A stretch of DNA of 33,066 nucleotides. Source: Archaeoglobaceae archaeon. Lineage in GTDB: Archaea > Halobacteriota > Archaeoglobi > Archaeoglobales > Archaeoglobaceae. This document shows, piece after piece, positions 1 to 32,155 of this stretch; the first letter of the stretch is position 1, and each line of letters begins with the position of its first letter. The DNA lies in NCBI GenBank assembly GCA_026985525.1, contig JALSQI010000052.1:1-33066 (forward strand). Direction: 5' to 3'. The translations under genes were made by a program, and so were the position numbers. The notes under the pieces were generated by a model. That model was given only the letters and a program-made list of their open reading frames with translations. It did no database searches and was not told the DNA's origin.

Positions 1-269
1 TAAGCAAGCTTGAGGATTGGAATCTTAGAGATGTAAAACGGCTTAGAGACGATGAATCATTTAAGAAACTCGTAGAAAACTCTATAAAGGATGTGCCTCT
101 GAGACTGGAAATCATTGACGGAGAAACTCGCAAAGGTAAGATTTCAAGAGAAGATTTTGAATTTTTGAAAATATCCATTTTAACGGGCATATTTTTCGAT
201 TTTGTCGATTTGTGGCATACAATTTTAAAATTTAAATTTGAAAAAGGTGGTGAAAATGAAAGCATTTGA
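1..269 (+). CDS. C-terminal end of an upstream CRISPR-operon gene (partial)
   Basis: An open frame enters from the left edge (first whole codon at base 3) and stops with TGA at 267-269, giving 88 residues. The fragment is charged and then helical and hydrophobic near the end. I recognise no motif in it. Its stop lies 14 bases inside the following Cmr4-like gene, and that gene's SD site (GGTGGTG, 246-252) sits within this frame, so the two are translationally coupled and surely one operon. By position it could be the C-terminus of Cas10/Cmr2 or of a RAMP such as Cmr3. That is inference from gene order only; the preceding sequence is needed to name it. Confidence 0.6.
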   Translation, partial: SKLEDWNLRDVKRLRDDESFKKLVENSIKDVPLRLEIIDGETRKGKISREDFEFLKISILTGIFFDFVDLWHTILKFKFEKGGENESI

Positions 270-1410
270 GTTGAAAAGATATTATGCAATAGCTCTAGAT
301 CCAATACACATTGGTACTGGTGGATATAGGATCGGTAGAGTAGATAACACGATAGTGAGAGAACCAGCAACGGGAATTCCAAAGATTCCCGGCACAACAA
401 TAGAGGGAGTTTGTAGGAGTTATGCGTTTTTAAAGGCAATGGAAGAGGGCAAATCAATCAATCCCGTTTGTGCTAAAGGAAAAGTAAAAAGTGAGTCAGA
501 ACAACCTTGTGGTAAGTGTGAAATCTGTGTAACGTTCGGCTTTTCGAGAAAGGATAGGTCTATGCAAGCCATGGCTTTATTTTCGGATACAAGGATTCTG
601 TTTTTCCCAGTAGCCACTATGATAGGACCAGTTTGGGTAACATGTCCAATGGTTCTTAAAGATGCTGGAATAAAAGAAATTAAGGGTAGTTCAAAAGAAG
701 ATATTCCAAAGCCAAATAACAACACTTTTATTGTTCCTGAAAGCTCTAAAATTAATCCGCCAGAAGAAAAACTTAACTTTGGCTGGTTACTTCTGACGCA
801 AGATAAGGATAATTCTAAGAAAACAGATACAAGTAAATGGGTTTACTATGAAAATAGCAAACAAGAAATGTTAAAAGATAAAATTCCAGATGAAATACTG
901 AGCAGGATTGTTATAGTTCCAGACAATCTATTCTCAACAATCGTAAACTCAAACCTCGAAGTTAGAACATCTGTTGCAATAGATCCAGAAAGGGGTGCTG
1001 CTGAGGAGGGAGCGTTATTCACTTACGAGGCAATTCCAAGAGGGACGGTTTTCTGGTTTGATGTAACTTACCAGAACCCCAAGCATTTTGGATTAAACGA
1101 TTGGGAAACGAATTTGATCATAAAAACGGTTGAAGACGGGCTCAGATACTTTGAGTTCTTAGGAGTTGGAGGCATGGGATCGAGAGGTTTTGGAAGACTG
1201 GAAGTGATTGGTAATTTCCTACCTTTTGAAGAATACATAGATGCTCTTGAGAGGAGATTAGAGACCTTACAAAAGGAAACTAAAAAAGAAGAAATTGAAA
1301 AGATTTGTGAATATTTAAGAGGAGTTAAATCAAAAATGGAGAAAGATGTTAAAGATATCCAAAGCCTAATCGATAAAGTTAACAAAATTTTTCCAAAATT
1401 TTGTAGGTGA
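256..1410 (+). CDS. cmr4: Cmr4-like Cas7 backbone subunit of a type III CRISPR effector
   Basis: RAMP-superfamily protein of about 384 residues. Cmr4 forms the repeated backbone of type III-B complexes and cuts target RNA at 6-nt spacing. Visible signatures are the N-terminal HIGTGG loop (about 18-23), the segment around D30 followed by a TGxPxIPGTTxxG run (about 39-51) that matches the Cas7 nuclease-Asp region, the Cmr4-type segment FSDTRILFFP...WVTCP (about 110-140), and a C-terminal Gly-rich GVGGMGSRGFGRL loop. An unusual insertion carries Cys72, Cys85, Cys88 and Cys91, a likely Zn site similar to those in Csm3/Csx7-type proteins. ATG 256 is preferred over the TTG at 238 because GGTGGTG lies just upstream of it. 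The next gene follows 6 bases downstream. Confidence 0.85.
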   Translation: MKAFELKRYYAIALDPIHIGTGGYRIGRVDNTIVREPATGIPKIPGTTIEGVCRSYAFLKAMEEGKSINPVCAKGKVKSESEQPCGKCEICVTFGFSRKDRSMQAMALFSDTRILFFPVATMIGPVWVTCPMVLKDAGIKEIKGSSKEDIPKPNNNTFIVPESSKINPPEEKLNFGWLLLTQDKDNSKKTDTSKWVYYENSKQEMLKDKIPDEILSRIVIVPDNLFSTIVNSNLEVRTSVAIDPERGAAEEGALFTYEAIPRGTVFWFDVTYQNPKHFGLNDWETNLIIKTVEDGLRYFEFLGVGGMGSRGFGRLEVIGNFLPFEEYIDALERRLETLQKETKKEEIEKICEYLRGVKSKMEKDVKDIQSLIDKVNKIFPKFCR

Positions 1411-1416
1411 TATAAG

Positions 1417-1794
1417 ATGACTGAAGAGAACCTTGATAAAATTGCTGCTGAAGTCGGATTTGAATTGGCAGATAACAAAAAAGACTCAGCTAAAGAATTT
1501 GAAAGAACGGTAACAAAAGCCTTAGGTATTTTAATTGAAGATGGCTTATTTGCATATGCTATCTGGTTGGAAAGTGAAGATGAAAAGGAGATAATAGACA
1601 AGAGTTTTGAACTATTAAGAGATAAAACAAAGTTAATCAAAGGGGATTATAACAAAAACAAAGAAAAGTTGAGAGAAGCCACTCTAAAAGAGATCTCACC
1701 CTCTATCGAAAAAACGCTCCTCGCAAGACAACTACTCGAAAGAATGCTTGTCTATGCAAGATATAGAGCTAAAGCTCTGCAAAAAGGTGATTAA
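1417..1794 (+). CDS. cmr5: Cmr5-like small subunit of type III-B CRISPR complex
   Basis: A 125-residue, all-helical, charged protein with the C-terminal pattern ARQLLERMLVYARYRAKAL, which is typical of Cmr5 (helical small subunit that lines the target RNA in the filament opposite Cmr4). Position directly between a Cmr4-like gene and a RAMP gene supports this. AGGTGAT (1405-1411) overlaps the Cmr4 stop and places the ATG at 1417. No catalytic residues are expected in this family. A Csm2/Cas11-type small subunit of another type III variant is the main alternative, but the C-terminal signature favours Cmr5. Confidence 0.8.
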   Translation: MTEENLDKIAAEVGFELADNKKDSAKEFERTVTKALGILIEDGLFAYAIWLESEDEKEIIDKSFELLRDKTKLIKGDYNKNKEKLREATLKEISPSIEKTLLARQLLERMLVYARYRAKALQKGD

Positions 1795-1796
1795 TA

Positions 1797-2810
1797 ATGG
1801 CTTGGAACTGCTATCTCGCAATCTTTAAAGCTGAAGTTCCAGTACACATAGGATACAAGCAGATTGGCATTCTGAAAACAACTCGCTACTACATCACAGG
1901 CAGGGTAATGTGGGGGGCGATAACAGCCAATTTAACAAGAGCGTTATTCAGCAGTCCAGATGCGCAAGACTATCAGGCGGTTGGAAATTTCGTCAGAGAA
2001 AATATAAAAACGACTTACTTTTACCCAGCCATAAATAAAAACGAAGTGTGTAATCCGGAGAAGTGGAGCAAATGTGAAGTTGGCAACTATCTCGTTTTTC
2101 TTCCAGAATACACTACTGAAGGAATAAAATTTGGTGAAAAAACTAAGGAAGAATTTGAACAGATGTTCATTGATTCCTTTGCCTCCACTGCCCTCGAACC
2201 GCAAACAAAAATTGCTGAAGAAGGTAGTTTGCACGAAATCGAATATATTAAGAATAAGACCGACGTAAATGGAAATGCTGTTCAAGTTTATTGGATTGGT
2301 TACATCTTCATTAATATGGATGCAAATAAGGCGAGGGATAATAGTGGAGAACGAGTTTACGATGTAGAGTTAAATGAAAAAAACAATGATGATATCGAGA
2401 TAAAATTCAAGAGCAAAGACAAGAATTACGAAACTACCCTAAAAGATTGTCTGTACATTTTACTCGTAGGAGGGGAAAGAAATTACGGATTTGGAAGATT
2501 GAAGCTTCTTGAAAATGACTTGCGAAAATCCAAAGATAAAATATTTGGGAAATTTGATTTTGAGCTTAAAGATAAAATTATTTTCAAAAATCTGAATGTA
2601 GCAATATCCCACATAAAATTGTCAAATAATAAACTTAAATTGGGGGAGATAGAACCACTCGTAGGTTTGGAGTGGTCTGAAAAAGGAGCGGGGCAAAAAA
2701 TCAGTGAAGCGATAGTATGTGCAACACCGGGGAGCAAAATAGAAGCTGAGGATATCGTTTTAAATAGTTATGCAATACTAAATTCAATACTAAATCGCGT
2801 GCAAGATTAA
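1797..2810 (+). CDS. Unclassified RAMP (Cas5/Cas7-like) protein of the type III operon
   Basis: 337-residue RAMP-fold protein. The N-terminus has a beta strand followed by VHIGYKQIGILKTTRYY and a GRVMWGA segment, in the position where RAMPs carry their PGSSLKGA loop. A second RAMP mark is the Gly-rich loop GGERNYGFGRLKL (about 223-235). Between them is a TALEPQTKIAEEGSLHEIEYI segment that I associate with non-canonical archaeal and thermophile type III RAMPs. It does not match ordinary Cmr6 (no N-terminal GGG/DPxxG pattern) or Cmr1. It probably fills the Cmr6, Cmr3 or Csx10 position in a variant complex. GGTGATT (about 1786-1792) is its SD site, 2 bases separate it from the previous stop, and it is the last gene of the operon. 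Confidence 0.7.
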   Translation: MAWNCYLAIFKAEVPVHIGYKQIGILKTTRYYITGRVMWGAITANLTRALFSSPDAQDYQAVGNFVRENIKTTYFYPAINKNEVCNPEKWSKCEVGNYLVFLPEYTTEGIKFGEKTKEEFEQMFIDSFASTALEPQTKIAEEGSLHEIEYIKNKTDVNGNAVQVYWIGYIFINMDANKARDNSGERVYDVELNEKNNDDIEIKFKSKDKNYETTLKDCLYILLVGGERNYGFGRLKLLENDLRKSKDKIFGKFDFELKDKIIFKNLNVAISHIKLSNNKLKLGEIEPLVGLEWSEKGAGQKISEAIVCATPGSKIEAEDIVLNSYAILNSILNRVQD

Positions 2811-3516: not shown

Positions 3517-3588
3517 CGGACCCGCCGGGATTTGAACCCGGGTCGAGGGGTCCGAAGCCCCTCAGGATTTCCCCTACCCTACGGGCCC
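3517..3588 (-). tRNA. tRNA-Arg (anticodon TCG)
   Basis: On the - strand the sequence folds as a complete cloverleaf. The acceptor stem is GGGCCCG / CGGGTCC with discriminator G. The anticodon stem AGGGG / CCCCT encloses loop CTTCGGA, giving anticodon TCG (reads CGA). The T arm is CCGGG-TTCAAAT-CCCGG. No intron and no encoded CCA. The very G+C-rich stems fit a hyperthermophile. The mature 5' end lies only 3 bases after the thioredoxin stop codon, and no A-box is evident inside the end of that gene, so the tRNA may be processed from the thioredoxin transcript. Confidence 0.95.
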
Positions 3589-8113: not shown

Positions 8114-8749
8114 TTAAATTTCATATAAATCACTTTCGTCCATTCTGTAAAGCGGTACGTGTTCTAAGGTTGGAACTACGCTGTGCTCGACGTAAACGTT
8201 GTAGATGTTCCCAAGTATCTCCAATTTTTCTATCCTTATAACCACGTCAAACAAGTTCGCAATTAAGTCGAGGTGTTTCGTACCAGTTATAACGAAGAAT
8301 GTTGTCTTGTCAAACCTGCTCAGCAATTCGTCCATCGCCCTAACGACTTCGTTTGTTTTAAAGCTCAATATTCCAACGTTAAGTCCGAAGATAAACGTAG
8401 TTTTTCCAAGCTCTCTTATTACTCTTCCAGCTTCAACAGCCATATCTACGAGGTTTCCTCTGTCTTCAATAAAGGCGACTAATTTTCCAAAGTCTATTCT
8501 GTTGTTTTTTCCAATTTTAACGACTGAAACGCTGTCGATCAAAGCTTTAACGCATGGATTTGATTTAAGATACCTGAGTATCTTTCCGAGTTTATTCGAG
8601 ACTGTTTCGCTGTAAACGACGAAAGTAACTTCCTCTTCACACATGGCAGATATCAAGTAATTGACGAATAGTATTGATCCGTAGGCATCATCAGCCATTA
8701 TTGCAGTGTTGCAATCCTTCAAAACTTCAACCAATTCCTCCAACATCAT
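8114..8749 (-). CDS. Unknown protein, second copy of a tandem paralogous pair
   Basis: 211 residues, clearly homologous to the gene just upstream: shared NTAIxADDxY start, FxVYSE, VVKIGK...FGKLVAxxExxGxLVD, an FDxVIRI strand, and a VYVEHSxV...PLYRxD end. The alternating hydrophobic strands and helices look like a RecA/KaiC-type fold, but the place where a Walker A loop would be (after the first strand) reads ADDAYGS with no GxxxxGKT, and no clear Walker B or catalytic Glu is seen. I think it is an inactivated RecA-like or DUF257-like domain; the family name is a guess. It begins 6 bases after its paralogue ends, so the pair is an operon. Confidence 0.6.
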   Translation of the reverse strand: MMLEELVEVLKDCNTAIMADDAYGSILFVNYLISAMCEEEVTFVVYSETVSNKLGKILRYLKSNPCVKALIDSVSVVKIGKNNRIDFGKLVAFIEDRGNLVDMAVEAGRVIRELGKTTFIFGLNVGILSFKTNEVVRAMDELLSRFDKTTFFVITGTKHLDLIANLFDVVIRIEKLEILGNIYNVYVEHSVVPTLEHVPLYRMDESDLYEI

Positions 8750-8755
8750 AACTCA

Positions 8756-9415
8756 TCACACTATGCTTATAACCCTCCCTCCATCTATTCTGTAGAGAGG
8801 TATTGGCGGTAATTCCTTGATTATGCTGTGTTCGACGTAAACGTCGTAAACTCTGCTGTAAGCCATTATGTCGTATCCCTTAGACTTCTTTATCCTTATA
8901 ACTATGTCAAAAAGGGCTGTAACTATTGGTACGCACTCCTTACTAAGCCTCGTAAGAACGAATAACTTAGTAGCGTTTGGTAGTTGAGCCAATAGCTCTT
9001 CCATTGCCTGAATTACTTCTGGTGGCGAGTACAGGTAAGAAATCAAGTCGAATCCAAGAAATATGGCGAACTTGTTTTCTAACTTCCTTAGTATGGAACC
9101 TAACTCCTTGCTTATGTCCACCAAATCTCCGTTTTCCTCTACGTACGCAACAAGCTTTCCAAAACCTAATTTACTCGTCTTTCCAATTTTAATAACTGGT
9201 ACGCTCTCTGCAACACTTTTAAGTTCTTCGCATTCAATTTTTTTATTTATAATTTTCTCTACTTTTCTGCACTTTATCTCTGAATAGATAACTAAAACTA
9301 CATTTTTCAACAAATCAGTATTTGCAAAGTTGCAAACAAAAGTGCTCGCACTGTACTCATCGTCAGCAACAATAGCGGTATTATTTCCCTCCAGCACTCC
9401 AACTAAGTCTCTCAT
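8756..9415 (-). CDS. Unknown protein, first copy of a tandem paralogous pair
   Basis: 219 residues, paralogue of the downstream gene along its whole length, with perhaps one third identity by eye. Same architecture: NTAIVADDEYSAS in place of a P-loop, VVLVIYSE, VPVIKIGKTSKLGFGKLVAY, DLVDISKELG, IFLGFD, FVLTRLS, FDIVIRIKKS and VYDVYVEHSI...PIPLYRIDGG. It differs by a KGYDIMAYS insertion before the last strand. No catalytic motif is visible. A probable A-box (AGTATTAATC on the - strand, about 9442-9451) at leaderless distance makes it the first gene of the pair. The two proteins could form a heterodimer; that is inference. Confidence 0.6.
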   Translation of the reverse strand: MRDLVGVLEGNNTAIVADDEYSASTFVCNFANTDLLKNVVLVIYSEIKCRKVEKIINKKIECEELKSVAESVPVIKIGKTSKLGFGKLVAYVEENGDLVDISKELGSILRKLENKFAIFLGFDLISYLYSPPEVIQAMEELLAQLPNATKLFVLTRLSKECVPIVTALFDIVIRIKKSKGYDIMAYSRVYDVYVEHSIIKELPPIPLYRIDGGRVISIV

Positions 9416-29521: not shown

Positions 29522-30013
29522 TTACCTCACTTCTACAACTTTACTTCCCCTCGCCATAGAGATAATGCCCGTTCTAACAAACTCCTTTATTCCGTACTGT
29601 CTCATCAAGTTAGTAAAGGCGTTTATCTTTTCCTCATCACCAGTTATCTCTATTATAAGGCTATCTCTCGCAACGTCAACTATTCTCGCTCTAAATATGT
29701 TCGCTATTTCTATTATCTCGCCCCTATTTTCGGTAGTAGCAGAAACTTTTATCAGAGCGAGTATTCTACTAACACTGTTCTCGCTAAGGTCGCTTACTTT
29801 TATAACTTCAATCAACTTGTTGAGTTGCTTTATCACTTGTTCTACTGTTTTCTCATCCCCTCTAACGACTATTGTCATTCTCGAAACGTCCTCTCTATCA
29901 GTAGTCCCAACAGCCAAGCTGTCTATGTTGAAACCCCTTCTCCTGAAGAGTGAAGAAACTCTTGCAAGAACTCCGGGCTTGTTTTCAACCAAAACGGCGA
30001 TAACTTTCTTCAA
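29522..30013 (-). CDS. ilvH: Acetolactate synthase regulatory (small) subunit
   Basis: 163 residues from TTG 30013. N-terminal ACT domain (about 4-75; [40 protein letters not shown]) that binds valine as feedback inhibitor, then the C-terminal activation domain ([42 protein letters not shown]). The start is fixed by the SD site GAGGTGATC, 3 bases before the TTG: the GTG at 30022 lies inside that SD site and is rejected, and the resulting [14 protein letters not shown] start is the family norm. Coupled with ilvB (ilvB stop at 30024). Confidence 0.94.
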
Positions 30014-30023
30014 TTCGATCACC

Positions 30024-31691
30024 TCAATATTCCTCGTCTATAATCTCTCTCAGAGATGCTCCAGCCGGAACCATCGGGTAAACGTTTTCAAGCCTTTCAA
30101 CTCTGAAATCTATTACCACAGGTGCATCTATTTCAAAAGCTTCTTTTAGTGCATCCTCTACTTCAGATGGCTTCTCAACCGTCATTCCAACAGCTCCAAA
30201 TCCCTTAGCTATCCTTTCAAAACTCATCTCTTTACACCTCAGGCAAGTTTCGGAGTACCTTTCATCGTAGAATAGTTCCTGCCACTGCCTGACCATTCCA
30301 AGGAACATGTTGTTCAGTATGCAAACTTTTACTGGAATTCCGTAGTCAACGCAAGTTGCGAGCTCTTGTATGTTCATCATAAAGCTCCCGTCTCCAGCTA
30401 TATCCACCACAGTTTTATCGGGAAAAGCAACTTGAGCACCCATCGCAGCTGGAAAACCGAAACCCATAGTTCCAAGACCCCCACTGGATATGAACTGCCT
30501 AGCTCTCTCTACTTTGAAAAACTGTGCCGCCCACATCTGGTTCTGTCCAACCTCGGTTGCAACTATAGCGTCTGGCTTTAACTCGTATATTTTTTCGATT
30601 ACGTACTGGGGTTTTATTACATCTCCTTCCTGCTTGTATTTGAGGGGGTACTTTTCTCTCCAAGAGTTGACTTTTTCCTCCCACTCCTTTCTCTGCTTAT
30701 ACTTAACGTACTTTACGAGCTCAGATAGAACGAGCTTAGCATCCCCAACAATTGGAACGTCAACCCTAACGTTTTTCCCTATTTCAGCTGGATCAACGTC
30801 TATGTGTATTATCTTAGCCTCCGGTGCGAATTCAGAAACTTTTCCAGTCGTTCTATCGCTAAACCTACATCCAACAGCTATTATTAAATCAGAGTCCATA
30901 ACAGCGTAATTTGCGTACTTTGAACCGTGCATACCTATGAATCCAAGAGATAGAGGATGGGTTTCAGGAATTGAACCTTTTCCCATTAAAGTCGTAACGA
31001 CGAAAGCAGGAATAGCTTCAGCCAGCTTTCTAAGTTCCTCGCAAGCGTTGGACAGTATCACTCCTCCTCCAGCTAAGATTATCGGTCTTTCGCTTTTGAC
31101 TATAAGTTCAGCTGCTTTTCTTATCTGCTTCGGATGTCCTTTAAGTTTTGGCTTGTAACCGGGAAGCTCTATTTCAACGGGATAGTTGAATTCCACATCG
31201 GCAACTGTAACGTCCTTAGGCAAGTCTATTAAAACCGGTCCAGGCCTGCCAGTAGAAGCTATGTGAAAAGCCTCTCTAACAGTTTTTAGCAACTCTTTCT
31301 CGTCAGTAACTAAGTAGTTGTGCTTAGTTATAGGCATAGTTATTCCAGTAGTATCCGCTTCCTGAAAAGCGTCGTTTCCTATCATCGAGCGTGGAACTTG
31401 TCCAGTCATAACGACTAAGGGAGAGGAGTCCATGTAAGCTGTCGCTATTCCCGTAACAGTATTCGTTGCTCCCGGACCAGACGTCGCAAAAGCAACTCCT
31501 GTTTTTCCAGTAGCTCTTGCATATCCATCTGCTGCGTGAACAGCTGCTTGCTCGTGTCTCGTAAGAATGTGTTCTATGTTGGAGTCGTATAACGCGTCGT
31601 AAACTTCTATTATTGCTCCTCCCGGTATGCCAAATATGTGTTCAACGCCCTCATACTCTAAAGCTTTAACGATAGCGTCTGCAGCCCTCAT
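30024..31691 (-). CDS. ilvB: Acetolactate synthase catalytic (large) subunit
   Basis: 555 residues. ThDP enzyme that condenses two pyruvates (or pyruvate and 2-ketobutyrate), the first common step of Val, Leu and Ile synthesis. Motifs: [11 protein letters not shown] and the catalytic Glu in [28 protein letters not shown], the FAD/ThDP middle domain with [11 protein letters not shown], and the ThDP-Mg motif [29 protein letters not shown]. Start ATG 31691 is decided by AAAGGTGG 6-13 bases upstream; the in-frame TTG at 31709 is rejected. Between this ATG and the stop of the proposed leader peptide are 29 T-rich bases. The sequence upstream strongly suggests amino-acid-responsive control. Confidence 0.97.
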
Positions 31692-31720
31692 AAAACCACC
31701 TTTATACAAAGAATAAAATT
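31692..31720 (-). promoter_or_regulatory. Leader-ilvB spacer: T-rich tract and SD site
   Basis: 29 bases between the leader stop codon and the ilvB ATG. The - strand reads a T-rich AATTTTATTCTTTG and then AAAGGTGG, the ilvB SD site. The T-rich tract directly after a strong hairpin could serve as a conditional terminator, since archaeal RNA polymerase stops at oligo-T. The SD site could also be masked or exposed by leader translation. Confidence 0.45.
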
Positions 31721-31786
31721 TTAGTGTACTACAATAATGGCTACTGGTACTGGCAAAAAAACAGGCAAACCCAGACCAGTAGCCAT
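31721..31786 (-). CDS. Putative branched-chain amino-acid leader peptide upstream of ilvB
   Basis: A 21-codon frame, ATG at 31786 to TAA at 31721, ending 29 bases before the ilvB start on the same strand. Residues 5-20 read [16 protein letters not shown]: three Leu, five Val, two Ile, 10 of 21 in total, ending in consecutive Ile-Ile-Val-Val codons (ATT ATT GTA GTA) and then His-stop. This matches the logic of bacterial ilv leader peptides such as IvbL and IlvL, although the sequence is different. An A-box-like TTTAAAAC (31806-31813) is about 24 bases upstream and there is no SD site, so the transcript should begin at or near the ATG. The frame coincides with a long inverted repeat. Function is inference; composition and position are seen directly. 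Confidence 0.72.
31737..31786. repeat. Inverted repeat (RNA hairpin) within the ilv leader frame
   Basis: Perfect 12-base arms ATGGCTACTGGT (31737-31748) and ACCAGTAGCCAT (31775-31786). Inner arms CTGG (31750-31753) and CCAG (31771-31774) extend the stem by 4 pairs past a one-base bulge. In the ilvB-sense RNA the leader start codon forms the 5' base of the stem, the Pro-Val-Ala-Ile codons form the 3' arm, and the loop holds a run of seven U. A stem of 16 pairs in AT-rich DNA is unlikely to be chance. Confidence 0.8.
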
Positions 31787-31803
31787 GCTAAGCGGGCTGA
31801 ATA

Positions 31804-31820
31804 AAGTTTTAAATAATTTT
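31804..31820 (-). promoter_or_regulatory. A-box for the ilv leader / ilvBH-purM operon
   Basis: On the - strand ATTATTTAAAACTTTAT contains TTTAAAAC, centred about 24 bases upstream of the leader ATG at 31786. The A-rich AAAAATTA before it could be the BRE. The spacing predicts a transcript starting at the leader start codon. Confidence 0.5.
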
Positions 31821-31865
31821 TGGTTTTAGTTTTTTTGTTGCAATAGTTATAATTCAAGTTTATTT

Positions 31866-32081
31866 ATGAAATCTTTATAAAAATTGTTAAACACTTTCAA
31901 CGTTGACAACTTGGATCGTGTCAAAATATAGGATTTACTATATAAGCTTAAGAAAGTTCTAAAGCAACCAAGAAAGAAGTCAAGAAGGTTAATAGCAATA
32001 GATGAAACAAAATTAAAGCTTGAGAAAAGGTTAATCTTCGTATGGGCTGCAATAGATGTTGATACCAAAGATCGAGTTTAA
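31866..32081 (+). pseudogene. Broken DDE transposase remnant
   Basis: Reading + from 31866 gives one frame with in-frame stops at 31878 (TAA), 31929 (TAG) and finally 32079 (TAA). The last 49 codons (31932-32078) encode KKSRRLIAIDETKLKLEKR followed by LIFVWAAIDVDTKD, the catalytic-core pattern (IDET...WAAID) of archaeal IS-type DDE transposases. Only about 70 codons survive of a protein normally several times longer; both ends are missing, and I find no terminal inverted repeats or target duplication. A duplicated ATCGAGTTT (32071-32079 and 32083-32091) follows the break. The frame on the opposite strand is a shadow. The piece sits between the ilv leader promoter and the thermosome terminator. 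Confidence 0.78.
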
Positions 32082-32155
32082 AATCGAGTTTCTAAAAAAC
32101 CAAAACTTTAAAACAGACCTAAAACTTTAAATCAAAAAATAAATCTTAAAAAAGG
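32082..32155 (-). terminator. T-rich terminator region after the thermosome gene
   Basis: Directly after the thermosome stop the - strand has CCTTTTTTAAG, ATTTATTTTTTG and further T-runs within 75 bases. Multiple oligo-T tracts are the usual archaeal factor-independent terminator. The same DNA holds two AAAACTTTAAA-like copies. Confidence 0.5.

Follow-up and report, generated by a model that had tools for sequence, protein, structure and literature searches.

The window, by which we mean the whole 33,066-nucleotide stretch of DNA analyzed here, comes from a genome (G000) placed in the Archaeoglobaceae and carries, on its reverse strand, ilvB (30024–31691), which encodes the large subunit of acetolactate synthase (AHAS; Pfam TPP_enzyme_N/M/C), and, in the same operon, ilvH/ilvN (29522–30022), which encodes the small subunit (Pfam ALS_ss_C and ACT_AHAS_ss). 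Before ilvB, the presumed regulated gene, translation reveals a leader ORF of 21 codons on the same strand (31721–31786), with its ATG at 31786 and its stop codon at 31723–31721. Ten of the 21 codons specify Leu, Val or Ile, and the frame closes with ATT ATT GTA GTA (Ile-Ile-Val-Val, 31727–31738; reverse strand), which on the grounds of GTA bias are the putative sensing codons, followed by a final His. The 29 nt between the leader stop and the ilvB ATG hold a T-rich stretch, TTTTATTCTTT (31708–31718, reverse strand), a candidate U-rich termination or FttA site, and the Shine-Dalgarno sequence of ilvB, GGTGG (31696–31700, reverse strand), which is conserved within the Archaeoglobaceae. Upstream of the leader lie a BRE-like ACCAAAA and an A-box (ATTATTTAAAA; 31807–31824, reverse strand; the BRE/A-box stretch reads ACCAAAAATTATTTAAAA), and the TATA-like TTTAAA of the A-box (31813–31808) ends 21 nt before the leader ATG. 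A preliminary description of this DNA had singled out the Leu/Val/Ile-rich short frame before ilvB; its coordinates and counts for the ORF were all right, and the frame, the Ile-Ile-Val-Val block and the 29-nt gap are confirmed here. Taken alone, the Leu/Val/Ile content of the window leader is borderline, because 99 of 1695 stop-free dinucleotide shuffles reach at least 10 such codons. The window holds four leaderless-type short ORFs on its two strands, and the leader is the only one with more than 40% Leu/Val/Ile. It is the comparison across the Archaeoglobaceae that places the leader far beyond chance.

For this comparison, we read the region upstream of ilvB in all 50 Archaeoglobaceae genomes that have an orthologue of this gene, which gave 51 loci from 13 genera. 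At 49 of the 51 loci, and in all 13 genera, ilvB is directly preceded by an intact short ORF of 13–46 codons that closes with a Val/Ile/Leu run; examples are MAAGLSVGTILLLPVAVFVVVQ from the genus of the window and MLANCGIRNLELFSVIIVVVQ, MRKCSRIAELCNLFLLVVVH, MPKFIPIPAILVSLLVLVE, MKKFSGKEFIVVQLLLLF and MSATLELNNFGVVLGVVLIVVVVLLL from other genera, and the longest, with 46 codons, is MHKIHRVRKKFEKSPNSLILELLKLSIKNFSKINRSKILESFLVVH. The N-terminal half of the leader varies freely and cannot be aligned between genera, and the C-terminal half is hydrophobic in all members. At one of the two remaining loci, L124 (G045; also L011), VPVVVLF stands in another frame than the leader ATG, which reflects either true decay or a frameshift, or else a sequencing or assembly error. 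The other, L132, has no leader and is a second, fragmentary copy of ilvB in a genome whose other copy has one. The preliminary description had proposed looking in relatives for a frame conserved with synonymous changes, and this is what we found in all 13 genera; relatives that keep the hairpin and lose the frame, which it would have counted against the leader, are the opposite of what we found, because the frame is kept everywhere and a 5′ hairpin occurs in two genera only.

Several measures identify the leader as coding. Within the sense codons of the leader ORFs, 155 of 162 GTA triplets are in frame and 7 are out of frame, and of the 18 distinct distances that separate the ATG from the last GTA, 16 are divisible by three (p = 1.7e-6 at a chance of 1/3 each). 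Leu, Val and Ile make up 49% of the leader frame compared with 19 and 13% of the other two frames (genus-level Stouffer z of 9.0 for leader Leu/Val/Ile against dinucleotide shuffles), T occupies 56% of second codon positions, and the last ten residues of the 49 leaders sum to 162 Val, 130 Leu and 52 Ile. The distance from the leader stop to the ilvB start is 12–40 nt across the family and is free modulo 3 (20/16/14); thus, the leader does not extend the IlvB reading frame. Judged by these comparisons of sequence, the conserved element is a reading frame rather than a nucleotide motif.

The leaders also share a codon signature. GTA accounts for 78% of their Val codons (n = 195) compared with 7% in ilvB (n = 1517; p = 9e-105) and 15% in a set of other Archaeoglobaceae genes (n = 4270), and the bias holds for each genus that has sufficient codons. 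In the window genome GTA is less rare, at 30% of the Val codons of window genes compared with 4 of 5 in its leader. Similarly, ATT makes up 75% of leader Ile codons compared with 28% in ilvB, and TTG 38% of leader Leu codons compared with 13% in ilvB. Little-used codons are a feature of some bacterial leaders. A GTA bias would be expected of a sensor of a particular charged tRNA and would serve no purpose in a peptide that acts in its own right, although it could also stem from sequence coupling, that is, from pairing with the ilvB start, and not from codon rarity as such. The conserved frame rich in Val codons suggests that ribosomes sense amino-acid supply in these archaea. Of the ribosome-sensed branched-chain amino-acid control proposed in the preliminary description, the leader peptide is thus well supported by sequence evolution, and the sensing is strongly suggested by the GTA bias.

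The position of the leader relative to the promoter is equally constrained. The spacing from the end of the A-box to the leader ATG is 21–23 nt in 48 of 50 Archaeoglobaceae leaders, a figure that is slightly favored by our taking, where a locus has several in-frame ATGs, the one nearest the expected spacing. In the same genomes, the spacing is 21–22 nt in 11 of the 12 scorable ilvC genes. Because this spacing resembles that of leaderless ilvC, the leader occupies the place of a leaderless gene, unlike ilvB itself, which has a Shine-Dalgarno site. From the A-box spacing, the leader is predicted to lie within the ilvB transcript; the start at the leader ATG, which had been predicted from the A-box of the window alone, falls at a position conserved in all 13 genera.

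We also asked what RNA structure accompanies the leader. In the window, the 5′ half of the ORF is predicted by folding to pair with its middle in a hairpin (31737–31786, reverse strand; −26.5 kcal/mol, z of −3.6) in which the arm 31786–31775 pairs with 31748–31737, extended by pairing of 31774–31771 with 31753–31750. All 60 pair cells are standard in five genomes of the same genus, and pairs 9-42 and 12-39 show two-sided changes within that genus. The change at pair 9-42, ACT to ACC with CCA to CCG, leaves the encoded residue unchanged in each arm, which indicates that RNA pairing and peptide are maintained together. Genus g3 (L109, L110, L112, L115, L117 and L131) has a different hairpin, GCTACCC with GGGTAGT, in which 5′ leader codons pair with the GTA codons themselves and 96% of cells are paired. 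Such 5′ hairpins were seen only in g1 and, in this different form, g3; they lie around or next to the leader start, where they may restrict the number of ribosomes that load. Folding of the 49 leaders gave no conserved pair of mutually exclusive terminator and antiterminator hairpins. A terminator-like hairpin with a T-run occurs in g12 and part of g3 and is absent from the window, and g6 has a similar hairpin without a following T-run. Because no mutually exclusive pair was found, the leaders do not have the classical bacterial attenuator design, and bacterial-type attenuation in the terminator/antiterminator sense is not supported by the RNA structures. Rfam covariance models gave no match in 31600–31900 up to an E-value of 1 (riboswitch, T-box or other); a search of the whole window gave only a tRNA (3517–3588). 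Across the Archaeoglobaceae, the last Val codon ends 27–49 nt before the ilvB ATG, and the region from there to the Shine-Dalgarno sequence is 45% T. Its excess of T-runs is modest (mean longest run of 4.4 compared with 3.4 in shuffles; best 8-mer with 5.7 compared with 5.3 T) and is weak in some members (L005, L006 and L089).

Archaeal transcription terminates at U-tracts and by the action of U-binding FttA (PMC8116511, PMC11616081). FttA (aCPSF1), a ribonuclease, binds U-rich RNA (PMC11616081) at a distance of ∼30–36 nt from the 3′ end of the transcript; the same reports put forward, as a hypothesis only, that RNA polymerase accommodates either a ribosome or FttA but not both (PMC8116511, PMC11616081). 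We posit that transcription would start at the leader ATG or close beside it; the first ribosome would then load on the leaderless 5′ end and meet, 27–49 nt before the ilvB start, a Val/Ile/Leu run in which Val is written with the otherwise little-used GTA. If charged tRNA were scarce, the ribosome would stall on the Val/Ile/Leu codons, most likely covering the downstream U-rich RNA and shielding RNA polymerase; intrinsic (U-tract) or FttA-dependent termination would then be blocked, and ilvBH would be transcribed. If amino acids were plentiful, the ribosome would finish and leave, the U-rich RNA would be exposed, and termination would follow before or early in ilvB. That the leader is translated, that ribosomes stall on it, which way expression responds and that termination is the step controlled are all inferred. 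Overall, we put at roughly 70% the probability that the leader is translated, senses the supply of branched-chain amino acids (above all of Val-tRNA) and sets ilvBH expression, most likely via termination. The narrower proposal, that these archaea have an attenuation of their own kind in which the first ribosome reads a leaderless leader with rare GTA codons as the sensor and the switch is the access of FttA, or of the U-tract response of RNA polymerase, to unstructured U-rich RNA without terminator/antiterminator folding, is tentative, and we rate it somewhat below even odds.

The alternatives differ in what they make of the frame and of its codons. If the conserved element were a DNA or RNA motif (the GTAGTA run or the dyad), such as the operator of a regulator, the ORF would be a by-product; GTAGTA is indeed nearly invariant as nucleotides, and a 12-bp dyad is present in the window, but across the 13 genera the run lies at 16 different distances from the leaderless ATG, each of them in frame and free of intervening stops, the 46-codon leader included, and the dyad is confined to g1 and, in different form, g3, which makes this reading very improbable. 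The slimmest chance of all is that the leader peptide is a functional small hydrophobic protein: a C-terminal half that is hydrophobic in all members would fit, but not the unalignable N-terminal half, the range of lengths (13–46), the conservation of codon choice and not of residues alone, or the location, always directly before ilvB. Alternatively, the leader could be translated but merely couple or boost ilvB translation, through reinitiation from a leaderless start, with no sensing of amino acids. The short distance of 12–40 nt from the leader stop to the ilvB start would favor such coupling, and reinitiation by ribosomes at leader ORFs has been proposed for bacteria (PMC4833913), but the richness in Val/Ile/Leu, the choice of GTA and the restriction to the pathway's own gene would all be left unexplained, and we regard coupling without sensing as highly unlikely.

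A weightier alternative, still an unlikely one in our estimation, keeps the same sensor and changes the output. In such translational attenuation, the Val-codon run would pair with ilvB codons 2–5 (GCUGC-like) and hide the Shine-Dalgarno sequence and ATG, and stalling of a ribosome at the Val codons would open this pairing and allow ilvB to be translated, a logic that the actinobacterial LEU element shares (PMC1262725). At 46 of 49 loci the third codon of ilvB ends in T, and pairing of GUAGUA with GCUGC is feasible; the complementarity between leader tail and ilvB start is −18.0 kcal/mol compared with −15.6 kcal/mol for shuffled tails; the pairing is present in the minimum-energy folds of several g1, g2 and g13 members; and synonymous variants pair less well in g2, g9, g12 and g13, which is suggestive in these genera only. 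However, exchanging partners between genera weakens the pairing only slightly (−17.2 kcal/mol compared with −18.0 kcal/mol for a leader with its own partner), 37% of synonymous variants on genus average pair at least as well, and placing a ribosome on the Val codons lowers the opening energy of the ilvB start no more than it does for shuffled leaders. As a separate observation, the third base of ilvB codon 3 is T at those 46 loci despite a varying residue (Ala, Gly, Val or Ser), and GCT makes up about a third of the Ala codons elsewhere in ilvB.

Control of termination by a leader that senses Val-tRNA, the reading that we prefer, may be set beside known systems. Leader peptides are a textbook means by which bacteria control amino-acid operons, and we took the bacterial ilv leaders (those of ilvB in Corynebacterium, Mycobacterium and Streptomyces and of ilvGMEDA and ilvBN in E. 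coli) as the comparison set. Like these, the Archaeoglobaceae leader is a short ORF that directly precedes an acetolactate synthase gene and has Ile/Val/Leu codons clustered in runs close to its end; unlike them, it has an archaeal host, an A-box promoter and a predicted leaderless start, Val (as GTA) dominates, and it shows no conserved terminator/antiterminator hairpins. Judged from its sequence, it thus has two marks of a ribosome-mediated attenuator, a short ORF with its own start and stop and a run of codons for the products of the pathway, and may be likened to a bacterial amino-acid leader while falling outside the terminator/antiterminator class. In Actinobacteria, ilvB genes have similar leaders and polyU terminators (PMC1262725), and these terminator hairpins have counterparts in some Archaeoglobaceae genera only. 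Such a leader need not work as expected because mutated regulatory codons made no difference to a similar-looking ilvB leader in Streptomyces coelicolor (PMC1262725). As in the LEU element upstream of leuA, the codon run of the leader may base-pair around the ribosome-binding site of the gene that it would regulate, but we identified no pseudoknot in the Archaeoglobaceae leaders and the pairing statistics are weak. Finally, as proposed here, a stalled or moving ribosome would decide the access of a termination factor to unstructured RNA, as it does in bacterial Rho-dependent leader control; here, FttA (aCPSF1), a ribonuclease with affinity for U-rich RNA (PMC11616081), would take the place of Rho.

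Among the genes checked, the device is restricted to ilvB. In the same genomes, ilvC and the leuA/cimA paralogues have plain leaderless starts and no comparable leader. We saw no Trp-rich short ORF near trpE, which is operon-internal (operon starts were covered in part), and near hisG, itself probably operon-internal, there is one His-containing short ORF in one genome. Outside the Archaeoglobaceae, the ilvB loci parsed in the sister Archaeoglobales family and in the Methanosarcinales and related lineages have no leader; leuA lies directly upstream of ilvB in these groups. So far, the leader is thus known from sequence comparison for one operon, ilvBH, in one family.

The statement in the preliminary description that attenuation of ilv genes is not established in Archaea agrees with the open-access literature that we searched, in which we found nothing relevant on archaeal leader-peptide attenuation, although an earlier report elsewhere is possible; a review of archaeal transcription-translation coupling mentions neither attenuation nor leader peptides. 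Archaeoglobus fulgidus is a culturable model and a member of the Archaeoglobaceae. With a leader in 13 genera, a codon signature and this organism at hand, regulatory coupling of ribosome and transcription in archaea becomes directly testable, and the ilvB leader likewise makes testable the hypothesis of mutual exclusion between ribosome and FttA (PMC8116511, PMC11616081).

Elsewhere in the window, a degenerate remnant resembling an insertion-sequence transposase (31900–32110, forward strand), which reads RRLIAIDETKLKLEKRLIFVWAAIDVDTKDR between stops, sits between a thermosome gene and the ilvB promoter, and a 74-nt segment there matches G000:C6:1489-1562 at 72%. Two adjacent and apparently paralogous proteins of 211 and 219 amino acids, without a Pfam match, are encoded at 8114–9415 (reverse strand). 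At 3–2810 (forward strand) lie genes for two RAMP-superfamily proteins that flank one for a small protein; they probably belong to a type III CRISPR effector operon extending beyond the window.
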